From the NCBI RefSeq assembly GCF_020164955.1, contig NZ_JAIUHG010000010.1, positions 62,001-126,000 of the forward strand: a DNA stretch of 64,000 nucleotides. The letters run 5' to 3'. The DNA comes from Mesorhizobium sp. CA8. GTDB taxonomy: Bacteria > Pseudomonadota > Alphaproteobacteria > Rhizobiales > Rhizobiaceae. A model generated the notes under the pieces. The model was not told the origin of the DNA. It ran no database searches and saw nothing but the letters and a program-made list of their open reading frames with translations. The position numbers were made by a program, and so were the translations under genes. Below, in pieces: positions 18,197 through 27,550 of the stretch; positions within the stretch are counted from its first letter, which is position 1, and each line of letters opens with the position of its first letter.

Positions 18197-18346
18197 TCAC
18201 GGCTGCAGTTCGATTGTGCGATATCGCGAAGCGGCGCACGATGGGACACCTATAGTGTCCCGGCCCATAGCGGCAACGCAGGGTTGGGCGCGGTAGCGTC
18301 GCAGCCCCGCCCTGAGAGCGGCCGGAAACCATCCCTGTGGATTACC

Positions 18347-18377
18347 GCATTGCACAATCTCCATCCGGCTGCACAAT
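18347..18377. promoter_or_regulatory. Repeated GCACAAT motif upstream of nasT
   Basis: GCATTGCACAAT at 18347-18358 and GCACAAT again at 18371-18377 stand just before the nasT ATG. The 11-base GCATTGCACAA also occurs at 20231-20241 upstream of the structural nitrate operon, so both control regions may bind the same protein. No clear ribosome site separates the second copy from the ATG at 18384. Confidence 0.4.
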
Positions 18378-18383
18378 AGACGC

Positions 18384-18986
18384 ATGTCCGCCGGTTCGTT
18401 GACCATCCTTGTTATCGACGAGAACCGCATCCGCGCCTCGATCATCGAGGCCGGATTGCGGGACGCCGGCCATCGCGAAGTCACGGTGGTCCATGACGTG
18501 GCCGGCATCGCCAAGCGCATCGCCGAGATCGAGCCGGACGTCATTGTCATCGATCTCGAAAATCCCAACCGCGATATGCTGGAGAACATGTTCCAGCTGT
18601 CGCGCGCGGTAAAACGTCCAATCGCCATGTTCGTCGATCGCTCCGACCAGGCCTCGATCGAGGCGGCCGTGGATGCCGGCGTGTCTGCCTATGTGGTCGA
18701 CGGGCTGAAGAAGGAACGCATCAAGCCGATCCTCGACATGGCGATCAGCCGCTTCAACGCCTTCTCGCGCATGGCGCGCGAATTGGAGGAGGCGCGCAGC
18801 GAGCTCGAGAACCGCAAGGTCATCGACCGGGCCAAGGGCATATTGATGAGGTCGCGCGGCCTGAACGAAGAGGCGGCCTACGTGCTGCTGCGCAAGACCG
18901 CCATGAACCAGAACCGCAAGATCGCCGATATCGCCCAGAGCCTGGTGACGGCGGCGGGATTGCTGGGGCCGCAGGAGGGCGAATGA
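18384..18986 (+). CDS. nasT: NasT: ANTAR-domain antitermination regulator of nitrate assimilation
   Basis: A 200-residue protein with a receiver-like domain (residues 1-125; EPDVIVIDLENP holds the acceptor-region aspartate) and a C-terminal ANTAR domain (about 140-195; RKVIDRAKGILMRSRGLNEE and IADIAQSLV). ANTAR proteins bind paired hexaloop hairpins in leader RNA and prevent termination. It overlaps nasS by four bases, fitting the known mechanism in which NasS holds NasT inactive until nitrate or nitrite binds. A matching RNA target is visible downstream at 20390-20510. Confidence 0.92.
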   Translation: MSAGSLTILVIDENRIRASIIEAGLRDAGHREVTVVHDVAGIAKRIAEIEPDVIVIDLENPNRDMLENMFQLSRAVKRPIAMFVDRSDQASIEAAVDAGVSAYVVDGLKKERIKPILDMAISRFNAFSRMARELEEARSELENRKVIDRAKGILMRSRGLNEEAAYVLLRKTAMNQNRKIADIAQSLVTAAGLLGPQEGE

Positions 18987-20209
18987 GCATGGCGCACGAA
19001 ATCACCGCCGGCTTCATGCCGCTCTTCGACAGCGCCGTCATGGTCGCGGCCGGTGAGATGGGCTTTGCCGCGCGTGAGGGCATCGATCTGAAGCTGCAGC
19101 GCGAGACCTCCTGGGCCAATATCCGCGACCGCATCGCCATCGGCCACTTCGATGTCGCCCATATGCTTGGGCCGATGCCGCTCGCCTGCAGCCTCGGCCT
19201 CACGCCGCTCGCTTCCGAAACCATTGTGCCCTTCTCGCTCGGCCTCGGCGGCAATTGCGTCACCGTCTCCAACGCCGTATGGGAGGGCATGGCGGCGCAT
19301 GGCGCGTCGCCTGATCTCGACCCGGCGCGTGCCGGGCAGGCGCTCGGCGCTTTGATCCACGAGCGAGCGAGCGCTGGCCGCGAGCCGCTGCGCTTCGCCG
19401 TCGTGCATCCGCATTCCGGGCACAATTACGAGCTGCGCTATTGGCTCGCCGCCTGCGGCATCGATCCCGACCGTGACATCGAGATCGTCATTGTGCCGCC
19501 GCCCTTCATGGCCGATGCATTGGCGGCCGGCCGCATCGACGGCTATTGCGTAGGCGAGCCTTGGAACAGCGCGGCCGTCGCGGCAGGCATCGGCCGCATC
19601 GTCACGGTCAAGGCGCTGCTTTGGCGCAACAGTCCGGAAAAGGTGATCGGCGTGCGCAAAGTCTGGGCGGAAGAAAACCCGGACGCGCTGGCAGCACTGC
19701 TGAGGGCACTGCATCACTCCGCACGCTGGTGCCAGGATCCGGCAAACCGCGGCGACCTTGCGGCGCTGATGGCGAGGCCTGAGTTTCTCGGCCAGCCGGA
19801 GGCGATCCAGATGCCGGCACTCACCGGACGCCTTCAACTCGGTGGAGGCGTGGAACGGAACGTCGAGGATTTCTTCCTGCCCTTCGACAAGGCGGCGAAT
19901 TTTCCCTGGAAGAGCCATGCGCTGTGGTTCTACACGCAGATGGTGCGCTGGGGTCAGTTGCCGCATACGCCGCAAAACCTCGCCATCGCGCGCGATTGTT
20001 ACCGGCCCGACCTCTATCGCTCGGCGCTGAAGCCGCTCGGCGTGGCGCTGCCCGGCGCCAATGCCAAAGTCGAAGGGGCCTTGAAGGCGGCGACGCCGGT
20101 CGGCTCGGCCGGCGCGAGTCTTGTCCTTGGCCCGGACGGATTTTTCGACGGCCAGATCTTCGATCCGGACCGGATTGACGCCTACGTCGCCGGCCAGAAA
20201 CGCGCCTGA
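18983..20209 (+). CDS. nasS: NasS: cytoplasmic nitrate/nitrite sensor (NrtA/CmpA-like)
   Basis: A 408-residue protein of the NrtA/CmpA periplasmic-binding fold, but without signal peptide or lipobox: the sequence goes straight into the binding fold (AGFMPLFDSAVMVAAGEMGF). Other marks are WANIRDRIAIGHFDVAHMLG, the middle VVHPHSGHNYELRYWLAACG, and ARDCYRPDLYRSALKPLG near the end. NasS binds nitrate or nitrite in the cytoplasm and releases NasT. The ATGA overlap with nasT implies matched production. The next genes form the assimilation operon. Confidence 0.92.
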   Translation: MSMAHEITAGFMPLFDSAVMVAAGEMGFAAREGIDLKLQRETSWANIRDRIAIGHFDVAHMLGPMPLACSLGLTPLASETIVPFSLGLGGNCVTVSNAVWEGMAAHGASPDLDPARAGQALGALIHERASAGREPLRFAVVHPHSGHNYELRYWLAACGIDPDRDIEIVIVPPPFMADALAAGRIDGYCVGEPWNSAAVAAGIGRIVTVKALLWRNSPEKVIGVRKVWAEENPDALAALLRALHHSARWCQDPANRGDLAALMARPEFLGQPEAIQMPALTGRLQLGGGVERNVEDFFLPFDKAANFPWKSHALWFYTQMVRWGQLPHTPQNLAIARDCYRPDLYRSALKPLGVALPGANAKVEGALKAATPVGSAGASLVLGPDGFFDGQIFDPDRIDAYVAGQKRA

Positions 20210-20226
20210 TCATTTGCGCGCCAATC

Positions 20227-20241
20227 TTGTGCATTGCACAA
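20227..20241. promoter_or_regulatory. Perfect palindrome upstream of the nitrate operon promoter
   Basis: TTGTGCA-T-TGCACAA, seven-base arms around one base, centred about 125 bases before the sigma-54-type element. It could be an activator site; the arms contain the GCAC/GTGC elements also found in NtrC sites but in an unusual close arrangement, so the binder is uncertain. Confidence 0.45.
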
Positions 20242-20360
20242 AATTTATGCTGCATGTTTATGCCATTGATCAATGTTTGACCGCGCCGCCGCTCGGCCCG
20301 GCCGAAGGCCAAAGCTCCCACTGCGTTGATTTTCCTTGAAATTCAGCTTCCGAGCGAAAC

Positions 20361-20376
20361 TGGCACGCTTCGTGCT
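20361..20376 (+). promoter_or_regulatory. Sigma-54-type (-24/-12) promoter of the nitrate operon
   Basis: TGGCACGCTTCGTGCT matches the TGGCACG-N4-TTGC consensus at all but one base, and the invariant GG and GC are exactly ten bases apart. Transcription would begin near 20387, just before the leader hairpins. A sigma-54 promoter implies activation by an NtrC-type protein under nitrogen limitation, a second layer over NasT/NasS. Confidence 0.7.
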
Positions 20377-20389
20377 TTGAAATAATCGA

Positions 20390-20510
20390 GCCCGTTCGCG
20401 GGCAATGGAACAGGCGTCCAATGGCGGGCGCCACAGGCAAAGCTGCCGCTCAGGTCAATACGACGCGATCCCGGATATACGGACGCGCGAGGCCTGGACG
20501 GCGGCTTTTT
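20390..20510 (+). ncRNA. Leader RNA: candidate NasT (ANTAR) antitermination target with terminator
   Basis: Three elements follow the promoter. First, a hairpin GCCCG-TTCG-CGGGC (20390-20403). Second, a seven-pair hairpin GGCGTCC-AATGGC-GGGCGCC (20413-20432) whose six-base loop has A at position 1 and G at position 4, the ANTAR target rule. Third, AGCTGCCG (20441-20448) can pair with CGGCGGCT (20499-20506), which runs into a T-rich tract, as a terminator. A further short hairpin GGC-AAAGCT-GCC (20436-20447), also with A1 and G4, overlaps the 5' arm of that terminator, so binding there would block it. The first hairpin's loop does not fit the rule, so the exact pair is uncertain. Confidence 0.65.
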
Positions 20511-20531
20511 CGTTTTGGACCGGAGACGACG

Positions 20532-20708
20532 ATGACCAAACGGATCGCAACGACATTGCTCAAGGATTTCACCCGTCGCGATTTCCTGGCGAGCAGCGCG
20601 CTGACCGCGGCTCTCTTCACTGCCGCGCTCCTGCTCTTTCCCGCCAATCACGAAACCGAAGGCAAAAGCCCGCAGGTGACCGCGCAAGTCCCGGTCTCGC
20701 GGCGCTGA
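20532..20708 (+). CDS. Small Tat-signal protein in the nitrate operon
   Basis: A 58-residue protein with a twin-arginine motif (FTRRDFLASSAL) and a hydrophobic helix (residues 22-38), then a short hydrophilic tail. GGAG stands upstream of the ATG at 20532. It is the first frame after the leader and before the nitrate transporter. The N-terminus resembles Tat signals of NrtA-type nitrate-binding proteins, so it may be the leftover start of a lost binding-protein gene or a small membrane-anchored protein in its own right. Confidence 0.6.
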   Translation: MTKRIATTLLKDFTRRDFLASSALTAALFTAALLLFPANHETEGKSPQVTAQVPVSRR

Positions 20709-20772
20709 CCGATGCCGCGCCTCTGATCAAGACAACACGCGGTGCCTCCCACGCCGCAAACCGGAGCCGACC

Positions 20773-22074
20773 ATGACCGCAAACCTCCCAGCCGCGCCCA
20801 GCCAGGATAATGCTCCCAGGCAGGCGCTCGTGATGTCCACCATCGCCTTCACCGTCTGCTTCGCGGTGTGGACGATCTTTTCCATCATCGGCGTGCGCAT
20901 CAAGCAGGAGCTAGGGCTGAACGAGACCGAGTTCGGCCTGCTCGTCGGCACGCCAATCCTCACCGGCTCACTCGTGCGCATGGTGCTTGGCGTCTGGACA
21001 GACCGCTATGGGGGACGCCTGGTCTACACCATGACGATGCTCGCGGCGGCGGTCGCGACCTTCCTGCTCGCTTTCGCACATACCTATGAGCAGATGCTGC
21101 TGGCCGCACTTGGTGTCGGGCTCGCGGGCGGCTCTTTCGCTGTGGGTGTTGCCTATGTCTCGCGCTTCTTCCCGGCCGGAAAGCAGGGCACGGCACTCGG
21201 CATCTTCGGTGTCGGCAATGTCGGCGCCGCCGTCACCAAGTTCCTGGCGCCACTCGTGCTGCTCGCCCGGGGCTGGCAGTCGGTGGCGCTGGTCTGGGCG
21301 GCGGCGCTCGTCGTCATGGCGATCATCTTCTGGTTCACCACTGGCGACGATCCGGTCATCCGCGAGCGCCGCGCCGGCAAGGCGATGCCCGTAAGAGGCT
21401 TCTGGCAGGAATTCGCCCCGTTGAAGAACCTGCAGGTCTGGCGCTTCGCCTTCTACTATTTCTTCTCCTTCGGGGCGTTCGTCGCGCTGTCGCTCTGGCT
21501 GCCGCGCTATCTCATCGGCGTCTATGGCTTCGGCATCGCCACCGCCGGCATGATCGGTGCCGCCTATTCGATCCCCGCCAGCATCTTCCGCGCCTATGGC
21601 GGCGTGCTTTCCGACCGCATCGGCGCCCGCACCGTGCTCTACTGGACCTTCAGCGTTTGTGCCGTCGCGACACTCACTCTGTCTCTCCCCTCGGCAGACT
21701 ATGTCGTGCGCGGCATCAGCGGGCCGATCCCGTTCCATGTCGAGATCGGCCCGCTCGCATTCATCGCCGTCGCTTGCGTGCTCGGCTTCTTCATGAGCCT
21801 CGGCAAGGCCGCCGTCTACAAGCACATCCCCGTCTATTATCCGCAGAGCGTCGGCGCGGTCGGCGGCGTCGTCGGCATGATCGGCGGCCTCGGCGGCTTC
21901 ATTCTGCCGATCGCCTTCGGCGTGCTGAACGATCTCACCGGGGTCTGGTCGAGCTGCTTCATGCTGCTCTTCCTCATCGTCGTCTCCTGCCTGATCTGGA
22001 TGCACGTCACCGTCCGCTGGATGGAGCGCGCGGCCGAGGTCAAGAGCCCGTCCCTATCCTACGCCGCCGAATAG
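20773..22074 (+). CDS. Nitrate/nitrite transporter, MFS family (NarK/NasA-type)
   Basis: A 433-residue membrane protein with about twelve helices. Family marks are GVRIKQELGLNETEFGLLVG and LVRMVLGVWTDRYGGR in the first half, the nitrate-signature segments GVGNVGAAVTKFLAP and GGVVGMIGGLGGFILP, and the conserved arginine near RMVLGV. It should import nitrate (and perhaps exchange nitrite) for the reductases encoded next. It starts at an ATG behind GGAGCC, 18 bases before nirB. Confidence 0.92.
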   Translation: MTANLPAAPSQDNAPRQALVMSTIAFTVCFAVWTIFSIIGVRIKQELGLNETEFGLLVGTPILTGSLVRMVLGVWTDRYGGRLVYTMTMLAAAVATFLLAFAHTYEQMLLAALGVGLAGGSFAVGVAYVSRFFPAGKQGTALGIFGVGNVGAAVTKFLAPLVLLARGWQSVALVWAAALVVMAIIFWFTTGDDPVIRERRAGKAMPVRGFWQEFAPLKNLQVWRFAFYYFFSFGAFVALSLWLPRYLIGVYGFGIATAGMIGAAYSIPASIFRAYGGVLSDRIGARTVLYWTFSVCAVATLTLSLPSADYVVRGISGPIPFHVEIGPLAFIAVACVLGFFMSLGKAAVYKHIPVYYPQSVGAVGGVVGMIGGLGGFILPIAFGVLNDLTGVWSSCFMLLFLIVVSCLIWMHVTVRWMERAAEVKSPSLSYAAE

Positions 22075-22091: not shown

Positions 22092-24542
22092 ATGACCGAG
22101 AAACTCGTCATCATCGGCAACGGCATGGCGCCAGGCAGGATGCTGGAGCACCTGCTGGAAGCCGCGCCCGACCGCTACGCCGTCACCATCTTCAACGCCG
22201 AGCCGCGCGTGAACTACGACCGCATCATGCTGTCGCCGGTGCTTTCGGGCGAGAAGGAGTTCGAGGAAATCGTCATCCATGGCGACGGCTGGTACATCAA
22301 GCACGGCATCACCCTCTACAAGGGCCACCGGATCGTCGCCATCGACAGGGACGCGAAGACCGTCACCTCGGACCACGGCGTGACCGAGAGTTACGACAGG
22401 CTGGTCATCGCCACCGGCTCGGTGCCCTTCATCATTCCGGTGCCGGGCAAGGACTTGCCCGGCGTGCTCAGCTACCGCGACCTCGACGACGTCAACGCCA
22501 TGCTGCTTGCCGCGCAGTCGCGCGCCAAAGCGGTCGTCATCGGCGGCGGCCTGCTCGGGCTCGAAGCCGCTGCCGGGCTGAAGGAGCGCGGCATGGACGT
22601 CACCGTGCTGCACGTCATGCCGACGCTGATGGAGCGCCAGCTCGATCCCGCCGCCGGCTACCTCTTGCAGAAGGCTGTCGAGGCGCGCGGCATCAAGGTC
22701 ATGACCAAGGCCAACACCAAGGCTATTGTCGGCAACGGCAAGGTCGAGGGCGTCGAGCTGATGGACGGCACGATCATCCCGGCAACGCTGGTGGTGATGG
22801 CGGTCGGCATCCGCCCAAACAGCACCTTGGCCAAGGACGCAGGGCTCGAGGTCAATCGCGGCATCGTCGTCGACGACCGCATGCAAACGTCCGACCCCGC
22901 GATCATGGCGCTCGGCGAATGCGCCGAGGTCGGCGGCCATGTCTATGGGCTCGTCGCGCCTCTCTACGAGATGGCCCGCGTCGCGGCTGCCAGGCTGACG
23001 GATGGCGAGGACAAGCGCTTCGTCCACTCCGACACGCCGACCAAGCTCAAGGTCACCGGCATCGACCTTTATTCGCTGGGCGACTTTGCCGACGGCGACG
23101 ACCGCGAGGAGATCATCCTGCGCGACGCCTCCGCCGGCATCTACAAGCGCGTCGTGCTGCAGGACAACCGCATCATCGGCACGGTGCTGTTCGGCGAAAC
23201 CGCCGACGGCGCGTGGTTCAACGACCTCAAGAAGAAGGCGACCGACATATCGGAGATGCGCGACACGCTGATCTTCGGCCAGGCGTTCCAGGGAGGCGTT
23301 TCCTCGGACCCTTTGGCGGCCGTTGCGGCACTGGCGGATGATGCGGAAATCTGCGGCTGCAACGGCGTCTGCAAGGGCAAGATCACCGGCGCGATCACGG
23401 CGAAGGGGCTGACCGGCCTCGACGATGTGCGCGCCCACACCAAGGCCTCGGCCTCCTGCGGCTCGTGCACGGGTCTCGTCGAGCAGCTGCTGAAGCTCAC
23501 GCTGGGCGAGGCCTACAATCCGGCGGCGGTACAGCCTATGTGCGGCTGCACGAGCCTCGGCCATGACGATGTGCGGCGTCTGATCAAGGCGAAGGGCCTG
23601 AAGACGATCCCTGCCATCATGCAGGAGCTCGAATGGAAGACCTCCTGCGGCTGCGCAAAATGCCGGCCGGCGCTCAACTACTATCTCGTCTGCGATTGGC
23701 CGGACCAATATGCCGACGACTATCAGTCGCGGTTCATCAACGAGCGCGTGCACGCCAACATCCAGAAGGACGGCACCTATTCGGTGGTGCCGCGCATGTG
23801 GGGCGGGGTGACCAGCGCCGGCGAATTGCGCGCCATCGCCGATGTGGTCGACAAGTTCGATATCCCGATGGTCAAGGTGACGGGCGGCCAGCGCATCGAC
23901 ATGCTTGGCATCCGCAAGGAAGACCTGCCGGCGGTATGGGCCGATCTCGGCAAGGCCGGCTTCGTCTCCGGCCATGCCTATGCCAAGGGCCTGCGCACGG
24001 TGAAGACCTGCGTCGGCTCGGACTGGTGCCGTTTCGGCACGCAGGATTCGACCGGGCTCGGCATCCGCATCGAGAAGTTCATGTGGGGTTCGTGGACGCC
24101 GGCCAAGGTGAAGATGGCGGTGTCGGGATGCCCGCGCAACTGCGCGGAGGCGACCTGCAAGGATGTCGGCGTGGTGTGCGTCGACTCTGGCTACGAAATT
24201 CACTTCGCCGGCGCCGCCGGCCTCGACATCAAGGGCACGGAAGTGCTCGGCTTGGTAAAGACCGAGGACGAGGCGCTGGAGGTGATCGTGGCGCTGGTCC
24301 AGATGTATCGCGAGCAGGCCCGCTATCTCGAGCGCATCTACAAATGGGCAAAGCGCGTCGGCACGGCCGAGATCAAGAAGCAGATCCTGGACGACGCCGA
24401 GAAGCGCCGCGCCTATTTCGAGCGCTTCGTCTTCAGCCAAAAATTCGCGCAGGTCGATCCGTGGTCGGAGCGCGTCTCCGGCAAGGACAAGCATGAGTTC
24501 AGGCCGATGGCGTCGGTCGGGTTCGCGGAGGCGGCGGAGTGA
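22092..24542 (+). CDS. nirB: NADH-dependent assimilatory nitrite reductase, large subunit
   Basis: An 816-residue cytoplasmic enzyme that reduces nitrite to ammonium. Order of parts: FAD/NAD domains (residues 1-300; IIGNGMAPGRMLEHLLE and VVIGGGLLGLEAAAGLKERG), BFD-like [2Fe-2S] domains (CGCNGVC at about 420, CGSC, and CGCAKC), then the sulfite/nitrite reductase module with the siroheme-[4Fe-4S] cysteines TCVGSDWC (about 639) and SGCPRNC (about 677). Length is as expected. The ATG at 22092 was chosen over longer frames overlapping the transporter. It works with NirD encoded immediately downstream. Confidence 0.95.
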   Translation: MTEKLVIIGNGMAPGRMLEHLLEAAPDRYAVTIFNAEPRVNYDRIMLSPVLSGEKEFEEIVIHGDGWYIKHGITLYKGHRIVAIDRDAKTVTSDHGVTESYDRLVIATGSVPFIIPVPGKDLPGVLSYRDLDDVNAMLLAAQSRAKAVVIGGGLLGLEAAAGLKERGMDVTVLHVMPTLMERQLDPAAGYLLQKAVEARGIKVMTKANTKAIVGNGKVEGVELMDGTIIPATLVVMAVGIRPNSTLAKDAGLEVNRGIVVDDRMQTSDPAIMALGECAEVGGHVYGLVAPLYEMARVAAARLTDGEDKRFVHSDTPTKLKVTGIDLYSLGDFADGDDREEIILRDASAGIYKRVVLQDNRIIGTVLFGETADGAWFNDLKKKATDISEMRDTLIFGQAFQGGVSSDPLAAVAALADDAEICGCNGVCKGKITGAITAKGLTGLDDVRAHTKASASCGSCTGLVEQLLKLTLGEAYNPAAVQPMCGCTSLGHDDVRRLIKAKGLKTIPAIMQELEWKTSCGCAKCRPALNYYLVCDWPDQYADDYQSRFINERVHANIQKDGTYSVVPRMWGGVTSAGELRAIADVVDKFDIPMVKVTGGQRIDMLGIRKEDLPAVWADLGKAGFVSGHAYAKGLRTVKTCVGSDWCRFGTQDSTGLGIRIEKFMWGSWTPAKVKMAVSGCPRNCAEATCKDVGVVCVDSGYEIHFAGAAGLDIKGTEVLGLVKTEDEALEVIVALVQMYREQARYLERIYKWAKRVGTAEIKKQILDDAEKRRAYFERFVFSQKFAQVDPWSERVSGKDKHEFRPMASVGFAEAAE

Positions 24543-24880: not shown

Positions 24881-27550
24881 ATGCAAGAAGCACGCGAGGT
24901 GAGGACCACCTGCCCCTATTGCGGGGTGGGCTGCGGCGTGCTCGCCGAGGTCGCCGCGGACGGTATGACGACCGTCCGCGGCGACCCCGATCATCCGGCC
25001 AATTTCGGCCGGCTCTGCTCGAAAGGTTCGGCTCTCGGCGAGACGCTTGGCCTCGAAGGCCGTTTGCTGCGGCCGGAAATTCTAGGCAAGCCGGCGAGCT
25101 GGGACGAAGCGCTCGACCTCGTGGCCGCGAAATTCTCGCAGGCTGTCGCCGAACACGGCCCGGACTCTGTCGCCTTCTATGTCTCCGGCCAGTTGCTCAC
25201 CGAGGACTATTACGTCGCCAATAAGCTGATGAAGGGCTTCATCGGCTCGGCCAATATCGACACTAATTCAAGGCTCTGCATGGCGTCGTCCGTCGCCGGT
25301 CATCGCCGCGCTTTCGGCGAGGACATCGTTCCCGGTGTCTATGAGGATTTCGAGTGCGCCGATCTCATCGTGCTCACCGGCTCCAACACCGCATGGTGCC
25401 ATCCCGTTCTCTACCAGCGCATGCTTGCGGCGCGAAAGGAACGCGGAACCAGGATCGTCGTCGTCGACCCGCGCCGCACCGCAACCGCCGACGAATGCGA
25501 CCTGCACCTGGCGCTCGATCCGGGCACGGACGTGATGCTGTTCAACGGGCTGCTTGCATATCTCGTCCAGGCCGGAAAAATCGATCCTGATTTCATCCGC
25601 GATCATACATCGGGCTTCGATGCGGCAGCTTCGCTCGCCGGCGCCGATGCGCCTTCGATCGCACGCGTGGCAAAGGGCTGCGGGCTGGCGGCAGCCGACG
25701 TCCAGGCCTTCTACGATCTCTTTGCCGCGACCGAGCGGACGGTCACCGTCTACAGCCAGGGCGTCAACCAGTCGGCGCATGGAACCGACAAGGTCAACGC
25801 CATCATCAACTGCCATCTCGCCACCGGCCGCATCGGCGAACCCGGCACGGGGCCGTTCTCGGTCACCGGGCAGCCGAACGCCATGGGCGGCCGCGAGGTC
25901 GGCGGTCTGGCCAACCAGCTTGCCGCGCATATGGATTTTGCCGACGAGGCCAGTATCGACCGGGTCTCCCGCTTCTGGAATGCGCCCAACATCGCCCGGC
26001 GCGGCGGCCTGAAGGCCGTAGACATGTTCCAGGCGGTCGCCGACGGCCGCATCAAGGCCTTGTGGGTCATGGGCACCAATCCCGCCGTCTCGATGCCCGA
26101 CGCTTCGCGTGTGCGCACTGCATTGTCCAAATGCGATTTCGTCGCGGTCTCGGATGTGACCCGCACCGACACCACGCGCTATGCCGACGTGCTGCTGCCG
26201 GCCGCCGCCTGGGGCGAGAAGGATGGCACCGTCACCAATTCGGAACGGCGCCTCTCGCGCCAGCGGCCGTTCCTGCCGCCGCCCAGCGACACGAAAGCCG
26301 ACTGGCGCATCATCTGCGAGGTCGCCGCGCGCATGGGTTTTGGCGAGGCCTTCGCCTACCAGACGCCAGCCGCGATCTTCCGCGAGCATGCAGCGCTGTC
26401 CGCCTTCGAGAACGACGGCAAGCGCCTGTTCGACCTTGGCGGCGTGGCTGATCTCAGCGATGAAGATTATTCCGCCTTCGCGCCGCGCCATTGGCCCGCA
26501 TCGGAACGGTGCGAGCAGCAGACGAGACTTTTCTCCGACGGTCGTTTTGCGACACAGGACGGACGCGCGCGTTTCGTGCCGGTGCGGCAGGAGGCGACGG
26601 CCTTCACGGTCGACGCCGACTATCCGCTCGCCCTGAACACCGGCCGGCTGCGCGACCAGTGGCACACCATGACGCGCACCGGAAACGTGCCGCGTTTGAT
26701 GGCGAACGCGCCGGACCCGGCGGTCGACCTTCACCCGGCGGACGCGGCCGCGCATCAGCTCAAGGATGGCGACCTCGCTCATCTTTCAACCCGCTTCGGC
26801 TTCGTCCGCGCCAGAGTGCGCGTGGCCGACGCGCAGCGGCGCGGACATGCCTTCATGCCCATGCATTGGAGCGGCCAGTTCGCAGCCAAGGCAGCAGCCG
26901 GCCTCTTATCCTCGCCGGTCACCGATCCGCATTCCGGCCAGCCAGAGCTCAAGCATGTTCCGGTGAGAATCGTGCGGGAAGAGACTGGCTGGGCCGGCGT
27001 GCTCATCACGCGACGCGATCTCAGGCCGACCGGTTTCGTGCATTGGAGCCGGCATGCTGTCGAGGGCGGCTGGGTTTACGACCTGACCGGAACCGAGCCG
27101 CCGGACCAGGGCATCCTGCTGGCGCGCAAGCTGCTCGGCGTCCAGCGGCGGGATCAACTCCTGGAATACACCGACCGCCGCGGGCTCGCCTATCGCGCCG
27201 CCGCCATCGACGAAGGCGGCGCCATGGCCGAAGCCTTGCTGGTCGCCGCCCCGGACCAGTTGCCGGCACGGGACTGGCTGGTGTCGTTGCTCGCCACGCG
27301 CCAGCCGCTGTCAACGACCGATCGCAACGTCCTTCTGTCCGGCCGGTCACCCGTGCCGATGCCGGCCATCGGGCGCGTCGTGTGCGCGTGCTTCCATGTC
27401 GGCGCCAACCAGCTCGCTTCGGCGGTCGCTTCGGGATGCGACAGCCTCGAAGCGATCGGCTCGACGCTGCGCGCAGGCACCAATTGCGGCTCATGCCGCT
27501 CGGAGATCAGGGCGATCATCGACTCGGGCCGAGTGCAAGCGGCTGAGTGA
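24881..27550 (+). CDS. nasA: Assimilatory nitrate reductase, catalytic subunit
   Basis: An 889-residue molybdopterin (bis-MGD) enzyme reducing nitrate to nitrite in the cytoplasm. The N-terminal [4Fe-4S] motif TCPYCGVGC ... RLCSKGSALG is clear; there is no Tat signal. The middle has VFSVTGQPNAMGGREVG-type cofactor-binding sequence and the C-terminal molydopterin dinucleotide domain has NTGRLRDQWHTMTRTGNVPR. Residues about 830-885 form a BFD-like [2Fe-2S] domain (VCACFHVG ... GTNCGSC), which is typical of the NAD-linked assimilatory form. It ends 22 bases before a convergent permease gene. Confidence 0.95.
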   Translation: MQEAREVRTTCPYCGVGCGVLAEVAADGMTTVRGDPDHPANFGRLCSKGSALGETLGLEGRLLRPEILGKPASWDEALDLVAAKFSQAVAEHGPDSVAFYVSGQLLTEDYYVANKLMKGFIGSANIDTNSRLCMASSVAGHRRAFGEDIVPGVYEDFECADLIVLTGSNTAWCHPVLYQRMLAARKERGTRIVVVDPRRTATADECDLHLALDPGTDVMLFNGLLAYLVQAGKIDPDFIRDHTSGFDAAASLAGADAPSIARVAKGCGLAAADVQAFYDLFAATERTVTVYSQGVNQSAHGTDKVNAIINCHLATGRIGEPGTGPFSVTGQPNAMGGREVGGLANQLAAHMDFADEASIDRVSRFWNAPNIARRGGLKAVDMFQAVADGRIKALWVMGTNPAVSMPDASRVRTALSKCDFVAVSDVTRTDTTRYADVLLPAAAWGEKDGTVTNSERRLSRQRPFLPPPSDTKADWRIICEVAARMGFGEAFAYQTPAAIFREHAALSAFENDGKRLFDLGGVADLSDEDYSAFAPRHWPASERCEQQTRLFSDGRFATQDGRARFVPVRQEATAFTVDADYPLALNTGRLRDQWHTMTRTGNVPRLMANAPDPAVDLHPADAAAHQLKDGDLAHLSTRFGFVRARVRVADAQRRGHAFMPMHWSGQFAAKAAAGLLSSPVTDPHSGQPELKHVPVRIVREETGWAGVLITRRDLRPTGFVHWSRHAVEGGWVYDLTGTEPPDQGILLARKLLGVQRRDQLLEYTDRRGLAYRAAAIDEGGAMAEALLVAAPDQLPARDWLVSLLATRQPLSTTDRNVLLSGRSPVPMPAIGRVVCACFHVGANQLASAVASGCDSLEAIGSTLRAGTNCGSCRSEIRAIIDSGRVQAAE

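Follow-up and report, generated by a model that had tools for sequence, protein, structure and literature searches.

Regulation of nitrate assimilation in this Mesorhizobium genome raises the question of whether one short region, lying between nasS and the nitrate-assimilation genes, controls both the initiation and the elongation of transcription. A first-pass annotation of the window (the whole 64-kb stretch of DNA that was analysed) had proposed such two-layer control, with nitrogen starvation acting on a promoter and nitrate acting on the leader behind it. We conclude, at a probability of roughly 0.88, that the window carries NtrC/sigma-54-dependent initiation combined with NasT-mediated antitermination of the Mesorhizobium nitrate-assimilation operon. 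Judged from its sequence, the control region appears real and well conserved. The principle of joining a sigma-54 promoter to an ANTAR leader is already known, and the new part of this leader is an additional hairpin, which we term P0.

Gene setting and architecture of the control region

The genes around the control region are as follows.

18384-18986 (+): nasT, predicted RNA-binding antiterminator with a receiver and an ANTAR domain (PF03861, 75.1 bits; PF00072, 36.5 bits)
18983-20209 (+): nasS, predicted NrtA-like nitrate/nitrite sensor (PF13379, 249.1 bits; matches to NrtA and nitrate-transporter chains in the PDB)
20532-20708 (+): 58-codon ORF, a truncated NrtA signal-peptide relic and the first reading frame past the leader, without Pfam or NCBIfam match
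20773-22074 (+): NarK-type MFS transporter for nitrate/nitrite (TIGR00886, 210.6 bits, below the cut-off of 311.7)
22092-24542 (+): nirB, nitrite reductase large subunit (TIGR02374, 912.6 bits, cut-off 578.35; start codon chosen by us)
24881-27550 (+): assimilatory nitrate reductase-type molybdoenzyme (PF00384, PF01568, PF04879, PF04324; NasC and NasA models below their cut-offs)

The Pfam domains confirmed that nasT and nasS sit directly upstream of the leader, as the first-pass annotation had stated. The two genes form an adjoining ANTAR response-regulator-like and NrtA-like pair with kin in the PDB, the arrangement that marks a NasS-NasT system, and nasT ends approximately 1.4 kb upstream of the leader. 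The 6.16-Mb genome gave three ANTAR hits, with nasT the strongest; the two other genes (L002 1054-1722 and L003 1453-2457, minus strand) look AmiR-like by eye. Both ntrC (696.8 bits) and rpoN (425.7 bits) are also present in the genome, with one of each over the cut-off. The relationships of NasS place the window among Mesorhizobium.

The intergenic region contains the following elements.

20218-20232 (+): putative NtrC-type site GCGCCAATCTTGTGC, palindrome in 7 of 8 letters, starting 144 bp upstream of the -24 GG, counted from its first G
20236-20250 (+): putative NtrC-type site GCACAAAATTTATGC, palindrome in 7 of 8 letters, starting 126 bp upstream of the -24 GG, counted from its first G
20361-20376 (+): sigma-54 -24/-12 promoter element TGGCACGCTTCGTGCT (GG at 20362-20363, GC at 20374-20375, N10 between)
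20387 (+): predicted transcription start (+1), 12 bases past the C at -12
20390-20403 (+): hairpin P0, GCCCG-UUCG-CGGGC, with a UUCG tetraloop that is not A1/G4, at about +4 of the predicted transcript
20413-20432 (+): hairpin P1, GGCGUCC-AAUGGC-GGGCGCC, 7 bp with one G-U pair and the ANTAR hexaloop AAUGGC (A1/G4)
20436-20447 (+): hairpin P2, GGC-AAAGCU-GCC, 3 bp with the ANTAR hexaloop AAAGCU (A1/G4), mutually exclusive with the terminator
20439-20508 (+): intrinsic terminator with a long branched stem of predicted fold, and a T tract at 20506-20516

Collection of related leaders

We took the best 80 of at least 512 NasS relatives as loci; at 49 of them a loose rule identified a dual hexaloop no more than 1 kb away from nasS. 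The window and 40 hand-picked members of these 49 loci made up an alignment of 41 leaders (A1). The Rfam narK RNA family (RF03032) matched in 9 of 297 genomes of the window's order, and in none of the 297 over its cut-off; we therefore searched with a purpose-built covariance model of P1 and P2 (R1), trained on the 41 leaders with the window among them. With an E-value limit of 0.001, 55 of the 397 genomes searched in that order gave a match.

The leaders from the NasS relatives (47, with L032, L056 and L082 of the 49 dual-hexaloop loci left out) and from the R1 search (63) were reduced to 105 by removing copies. L050/L140 and L051/L137 are the same leaders and are each counted once among the 105, while the terminator-overlap figures (106 rows) and the 80% clusters given below come from a set of 107 leaders that still included these duplicates. 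A further alignment (A3) omitted L005, L111, L112, L118 and L140 as near-copies.

Run over the genome of the window, R1 identified one strong target, the window leader itself (59.7 bits, the window being among the training sequences). We found no convincing further NasT target in the genome: the second-best match reached 24.1 bits (E 0.136), and 36 more matches with E values up to 10 all scored below that.

A sigma-54 promoter element with upstream NtrC-type palindromes

The sigma-54 consensus is a GG and a GC ten bases apart (GG-N10-GC) within TGGCACG-N4-TTGCW, and transcription from such promoters starts 12 bases past the C at -12. Set against this consensus, the element at 20361-20376 agrees in 11 of 12 letters and has the GG-N10-GC spacing, which bears out the earlier report of a -24/-12 element with GG and GC ten bases apart. 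The sequence at this position, TGGCACGcttcGTGCT, is the sole strict -24/-12 match within the 64-kb window. The pattern TGGCACRNNNNNTGCW occurs once in the window versus 0.12 expected, with at least one match in 11 of 100 shuffles. A scan of 18200-20800 found no sigma-70-type promoters, where 0.3 were expected.

Conservation of the GG-N10-GC element in relatives, on which the first-pass annotation had made its proposal depend, was found in 81 of the 105 distinct leaders, at a distance of up to 75 nt upstream of P1 (33-39 nt before P1 in 51 of these). One of the 81, L120, has 8 of the 12 consensus letters and looks spurious. The element is absent within 75 nt of P1 in the remaining 24, so the promoter layer is not universal.

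Both NtrC-type sites of the window are one letter off the palindrome GCAC-N7-GTGC, the letters of which we take to be those of the NtrC site type; the site at 20236-20250 has the perfect form GCACAAAATTTGTGC in some relatives. We searched for this palindrome 20-200 bp before the -24 element in the 79 leaders with a promoter match of at least 10 letters, and found it with 7 or 8 of 8 letters in 44 of them versus 7% of shuffles. Among these 44 leaders with a good site, the palindrome lies at -120 to -127 from the first G of the GG in 29, and the first-listed palindrome lies at -143/-144 in seven. We infer that NtrC may bind the palindromes at 20218-20250. The RegPrecise consensus for Paracoccus, as described in PMC5424462, is related to GCAC-N7-GTGC yet different from it.

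A dual-hexaloop leader overlapping a terminator

The ANTAR dual hexaloop described in PMC3369931 comprises two hairpins of at least 3 bp joined by a variable linker, A and G at positions 1 and 4 of both loops, and a terminator over P2. The window leader has stems of 7 and 3 bp separated by a 3-nt linker, the loops AATGGC and AAAGCT, and a terminator that overlaps P2, an arrangement that the same paper reports for approximately 30% of hits in ANTAR-bearing organisms. P1, linker, P2 and overlapping terminator are thus predicted from the sequence to follow the canonical ANTAR order. Both leader features that had been reported earlier, a seven-pair hairpin with an A1/G4 hexaloop and a T-rich terminator whose 5' arm overlaps a second A1/G4 loop, correspond to P1 and to the P2-terminator overlap and were recovered here.

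The 5' arm of the terminator, AAAGCUGCCG (20439-20448), begins with the loop and 3' arm of P2 and pairs with CGGCGGCUUU (20499-20508), which is followed by the T tract. A simple terminator scan called only the 3' part of this structure (20489-20508). The 127-nt leader folds with a predicted energy of -63 kcal/mol (z -3.79), and none of 200 shuffles was equally stable. The full ANTAR-type combination (P1 of 7 or more pairs, P2 of 3 or more pairs, a linker of at most 12 and an overlapping terminator) was found once when the two strands of the window were searched, and never in 40 Markov-resampled windows, each searched on a single strand. Searched at Rfam gathering thresholds, the leader gave no match; a weak narK RNA match (17.0 bits) does cover P1 and P2.

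Comparison among the leaders of alignment A1 (40 distinct rows from the 41) showed that 97.2% of P1/P2 cells are paired, versus 34-56% for controls in which the pairing was slid along the alignment. The covariation of the two stems was 0.319 versus 0.156 for shuffled alignments (0 of 500 as high) and at most 0.124 for the slid controls; P2's own contribution to it rests on one pair, because P2 has only three pairs and two are invariant. Every one of the 41 aligned leaders has A1 and G4 in the loops of both P1 and P2. Among 13 aligned Mesorhizobium relatives, hardly any change was seen in the promoter, P1, P2, the 3' arm of the terminator or the T tract; the exceptions are L014, with greater divergence, and L015, which has no leader at this place. 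The P1 loop at 20413-20432, whose conservation had been named as decisive, reads AATGGC or AATGAC in 12 of the 13, with L015 as the exception.

In 102 of 106 rows, 7 or 8 of the 8 positions of the 8-nt P2 arm are complementary to the stretch that precedes the T tract, versus 12% for shuffled tails. When arms and tails were swapped among leaders, the mean pairing was 7.30 of 8 versus 7.70 for each leader's own tail. Swapped arms pair almost equally well because arms and tails are both conserved, and the match between P2 and the terminator therefore demonstrates a conserved overlap, not strong covariation.

An additional hairpin at the 5' end of the transcript

The first-pass annotation had noted that the first hairpin breaks the loop rule, and had suspected that the hairpin pair might be arranged unlike known NasR and NasT targets. 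The observation holds, in that the first hairpin is P0 with its UUCG loop. The suspicion does not: P1 and P2 form the canonical pair, and P0 is an additional hairpin outside that pair, absent from the usual two-hairpin version.

Comparison among leaders argues that P0 is real. A P0-like hairpin with a score of at least 8 was found at the 5' end in 51 of the 75 leaders with enough room. In shuffles the rate was 9%, and among 225 natural segments from upstream of the promoter 43 had such a hairpin, which gives an excess of approximately 3.6-fold over natural sequence and 7.8-fold over shuffles. It was present in 49 of 58 leaders with a promoter-P1 spacing of 27-41 and in 2 of 17 with a wider spacing, of at least 42, most of which are of the Devosia type. 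On average, P0 begins at position +3.4 (sd 0.8) of the predicted RNA and leaves 8.0 (sd 1.8) nt between its end and P1.

The covariation of the P0 stem across 56 leaders was 0.275 versus 0.142 when shuffled (0 of 500 as high). In the named P0 stem 19.8% of cells are unpaired, 22 of 51 leaders do not form its outermost pair, and 103 of 500 shuffles reached the observed value for pairs with two-sided changes. RNAalifold, applied to the 56-leader alignment, did not recover P0 and formed pairs with promoter letters in its place, probably as a result of the variable loops having been scattered by MAFFT; the evidence for P0 therefore consists of the shuffles, the natural control segments and the named structure. 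P0 loops vary among leaders (UUCG, GCAA, GAAA and others), and those of close Mesorhizobium relatives are UUCGC, UUCUC, CUCGC and similar. A 5'-terminal stem-loop can reportedly stabilise mRNA in E. coli (Emory 1992), and our guess is that P0 in the window probably protects or insulates the leader end.

A third A1/G4 hexaloop in some lineages

In some leaders the P0 region carries an ANTAR-type loop. In the 45 nt preceding P1 we counted hexaloop hairpins for each of the 16 possible pairs of letters at loop positions 1 and 4. With stems of 5 or more pairs, A1/G4 occurred in 14 of 105 leaders, versus 5 for the next loop classes and 1 of 105 for A1/G4 in control segments further upstream; with stems of at least 4 pairs the figures were 16, 9 and 6, respectively, and by 80% clusters A1/G4 was found in 12 of 79 versus 4. 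Three of the 14 lie off the usual P0 place (L121 and L141 overlap the promoter side, and L047 has no GG-N10-GC) and may represent something else or chance.

The lineages with an A1/G4 P0 are Roseibium, Methyloceanibacter, Mesorhizobium sp. 1M-11, Aurantimonas (4-bp stem) and perhaps a Rhodospirillales MAG, and P0 usually precedes the classical P1/P2 pair by 8-9 nt. This distribution suggests that several lineages have three-hexaloop leaders. At least four changes are required to account for the A1/G4 P0 on a tree of 49 NasS proteins, so that it is either ancient with frequent losses or was acquired more than once. (The tree labels P0, AG and no were set by hand, L060 being assigned to AG by eye outside the scripted list; any stop codons appear as X.) In the window, the A1/G4 loop of P0 was either lost or never present.

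By analogy with the stepwise model of ANTAR action (PMC8934654), an A1/G4 P0, where present, could well act as a further recruiting hexaloop. A broader reading, which we regard as tentative and somewhat more doubtful than not, is that many alphaproteobacterial NasT leaders are three-hairpin devices, with an A1/G4 P0 in several lineages, on which NasT would be loaded at the RNA exit and passed from P0 to P1 to P2; Mesorhizobium would have kept the stem and not the loop, and the Rfam narK RNA would be the two-hairpin form of the cassette outside the window's order. The third hairpin makes the stepwise-transfer model testable by adding or removing a hexaloop.

Alternative readings of the control region

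Transcription of the operon might instead begin upstream, by read-in from nasTS or another start, with a genuine NasT attenuator, nitrogen control exerted at nasT and the 20361 element not the main promoter. Read-through is possible because the terminator scan found only one weak hairpin between nasS and the promoter (20227-20241, overlapping an NtrC-type palindrome); the NtrC site tested in Paracoccus lies before nasT (PMC5424462), and 24 of the 105 leaders have no -24/-12 element. We nevertheless consider this improbable, since the strict element and a palindrome at about -125 are conserved at this place in many genomes, the 200 bp before nasT contain no good -24/-12 match, and P0 begins at +3/+4 as counted from the predicted start. 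Even less credible, to the point of being barely worth entertaining, is that the hairpins merely terminate nasTS and have no antitermination role. A terminator after nasS requires no regulator, but P1 lies outside the terminator and its A1/G4 loop and stem are nonetheless among the most conserved parts of the leader, and the overlap of P2 with the terminator has been kept.

P0 itself invites two other interpretations. An inverted repeat fixed after the promoter would give the same picture if it were a DNA operator over the start site and not an RNA hairpin. The stem letters, however, vary by lineage (ggccc, gactc, gcgc, agctt, gttcc, gatctc) with the pairing kept, so RNA fits better than a specific protein site, and we judge an operator unlikely, if the least unlikely of the alternatives considered here. 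A role of P0 as a third NasT-binding hairpin even in the window would be in keeping with the 14 leaders that have an A1/G4 hexaloop near the P0 place (against 5 and 1 for the next class and the control). The window's own loop, however, is UUCG and the loops of close Mesorhizobium relatives are likewise not A1/G4, EutV binding is reported to drop with single changes at loop letters 1 and 4 (PMC3369931), and NasR is reported to prefer A1 and G4 (PMC7496416); NasT binding to P0 here is accordingly very improbable.

Proposed mechanism and relation to known systems

The reading that we prefer is therefore two-layer control of the nitrate-assimilation operon, on which the identity of NasT, the terminator overlap, the presence of ntrC and rpoN and the conserved NtrC-type palindrome agree, in support of the first-pass proposal. 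When fixed nitrogen is short, phosphorylated NtrC bound approximately 125-145 bp upstream of -24 would activate sigma-54 polymerase at 20361-20376, as suggested by the sequence and its conservation, and the transcript would start near 20387. By default, the 5' arm of the terminator would capture the P2 region and transcription would stop at the T tract (20506-20516), consistent with the predicted fold and the conserved overlap. Nitrate or nitrite bound to NasS would free NasT, as is known from Paracoccus, and NasT on the A1/G4 hexaloops of P1 and P2 would hold P2 and block the terminator, for which EutV and NasR are precedents; the transporter, nirB and nitrate reductase genes would then be made. 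P0 would be an additional 5'-proximal structural hairpin that in several relatives, with its A1/G4 loop, offers a possible further recruiting site. The antitermination part of this mechanism is transferred to this organism by analogy with relatives.

The closest precedent for both layers is nasF/NasR of Klebsiella oxytoca, in which Ntr control is combined with nitrate-responsive ANTAR antitermination on a P1P2 leader (PMC5424462, PMC7496416) with the same two-hairpin motif (PMC7496416). NasR, however, is a single protein with its own nitrate domain, unlike the NasS-NasT pair of the window, and the accessible descriptions of nasF in these papers, by which we compared the two, do not mention P0. 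Klebsiella already provides an established case of an Ntr-controlled start with elongation under nitrate control, and the window contributes a well-supported example from the Alphaproteobacteria. Paracoccus denitrificans has the same regulators, with a leader between nasTS and the structural genes and a hairpin that is needed for expression (PMC5424462, PMC3795266): nitrate frees NasT from NasS and NasT binds the nasA leader (PMC3795266), and a leader-hairpin mutant phenotype shows that nas expression needs the hairpin (PMC5424462). The NtrC site tested there lies before nasT, and the site before nasA is called as yet unidentified in the available text, whereas in the window the -24/-12 element and palindrome stand directly before the leader. 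The NasS-NasT system of Azotobacter is likened to the window by citation only. The eut/EutV leaders of Enterococcus faecalis share the dual hexaloop with P2 within the terminator; EutV differs in being activated by phosphorylation, and the accessible portions of these papers mention no sigma-54 element in eut leaders (PMC3369931, PMC8934654).

A search of the open-licence literature for ANTAR targets with extra hairpins gave two ANTAR papers, PMC3369931 and PMC8131098. The tandem hairpins of the former are, in the text available, the dual motif, and the PdtaR-bound RNA of Mycobacterium tuberculosis in the latter has three hairpins near a start codon, a different setting. No paper on a Mesorhizobium nasT leader was found in the open-licence literature among the matches listed.

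Relation to the Rfam narK RNA

The window leader was rejected as a member of RF03032, with which it aligns over P1 and P2 at 17.0 bits (E 0.68), below the gathering score of 43.2. The family consensus nevertheless resembles the window. Its positions 1-15 read GGCaCAgcucUUGCU, i.e. GG-N10-GC (positions 1-14), followed by an A1/G4 hexaloop hairpin and then, as in the window, a second A1/G4 hairpin (CGAC-AAAGAC-GUCG) that lies outside the Rfam structure line. We inspected the 38 RF03032 hits with a locus, of 44 distinct places listed, and 35 of the 38 start with GG-N10-GC, in part because the family model asks for it. In 29 hits outside the window's order, 92% of cells of the second hairpin are paired, three of its four pairs being without two-sided change. 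The consensus differs from the window in that its P1 lies near +5, without room for P0. RF03032 narK RNA looks like the combination of a sigma-54 promoter and a downstream ANTAR dual hexaloop whose P2 is unannotated, a plausible identity for this family, and no paper describing the narK motif was found in the open-licence literature.

Variation and history of the promoter-leader cassette

The comparative anatomy of one promoter-leader cassette across many genomes could be useful to specialists, and several variants were observed. In leaders of the Devosia/Pelagibacterium type (L051, L128, L131, L133-L136, L149, L150 and L156) a longer element replaces P0 upstream of P1, with a near-constant CTCCTCCCAAGACG flanked by GAGC- and GCTC-like arms. 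Leaders of the Methyloceanibacter type (L060, L074, L153 and L154) have TGGCACGCWTCTTGA before P0, a near miss of the -12 GC, and P0 is A1/G4 in three of these four.

Another member of the genus (G309; L198, G309:C40:416500-428000) carries the promoter-leader cassette twice in series, in the order nasT, nasS, leader 1, nrtA, two transporter-like genes, leader 2, relic, MFS gene, nirB and nirD-like ORF (named by eye). The relic is a 63-codon nrtA start of the same kind as the 58-codon ORF of the window. We infer that the leader and the start of nrtA were copied to a place before the MFS gene, and that the lineage of the window kept only that copy.

The 58-codon ORF (20532-20708) corresponds to an NrtA cut down to its signal-peptide start. 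The short forms (window and six relatives) read AAL in the hydrophobic part and the five aligned full-length forms AAR. For the short ORF, dN/dS was 0.21-0.68 in all 21 pairs, with a pooled pN/pS of 0.46, and it may therefore be a kept small membrane peptide. In M. jarvisii (L012, from 4559) the nrtA frame behind the leader is cut short at 89 codons, which may mean that the gene is broken or that the sequence contains an error.

Two leaders per genome were also found in eight members of another family (f6), separated by 3.4-4.7 kb in five of them and by more than 200 kb in three. In L199 (G222:C10:172000-184000) the two leaders precede, by eye, a transporter-like gene set and an MFS-type ORF.
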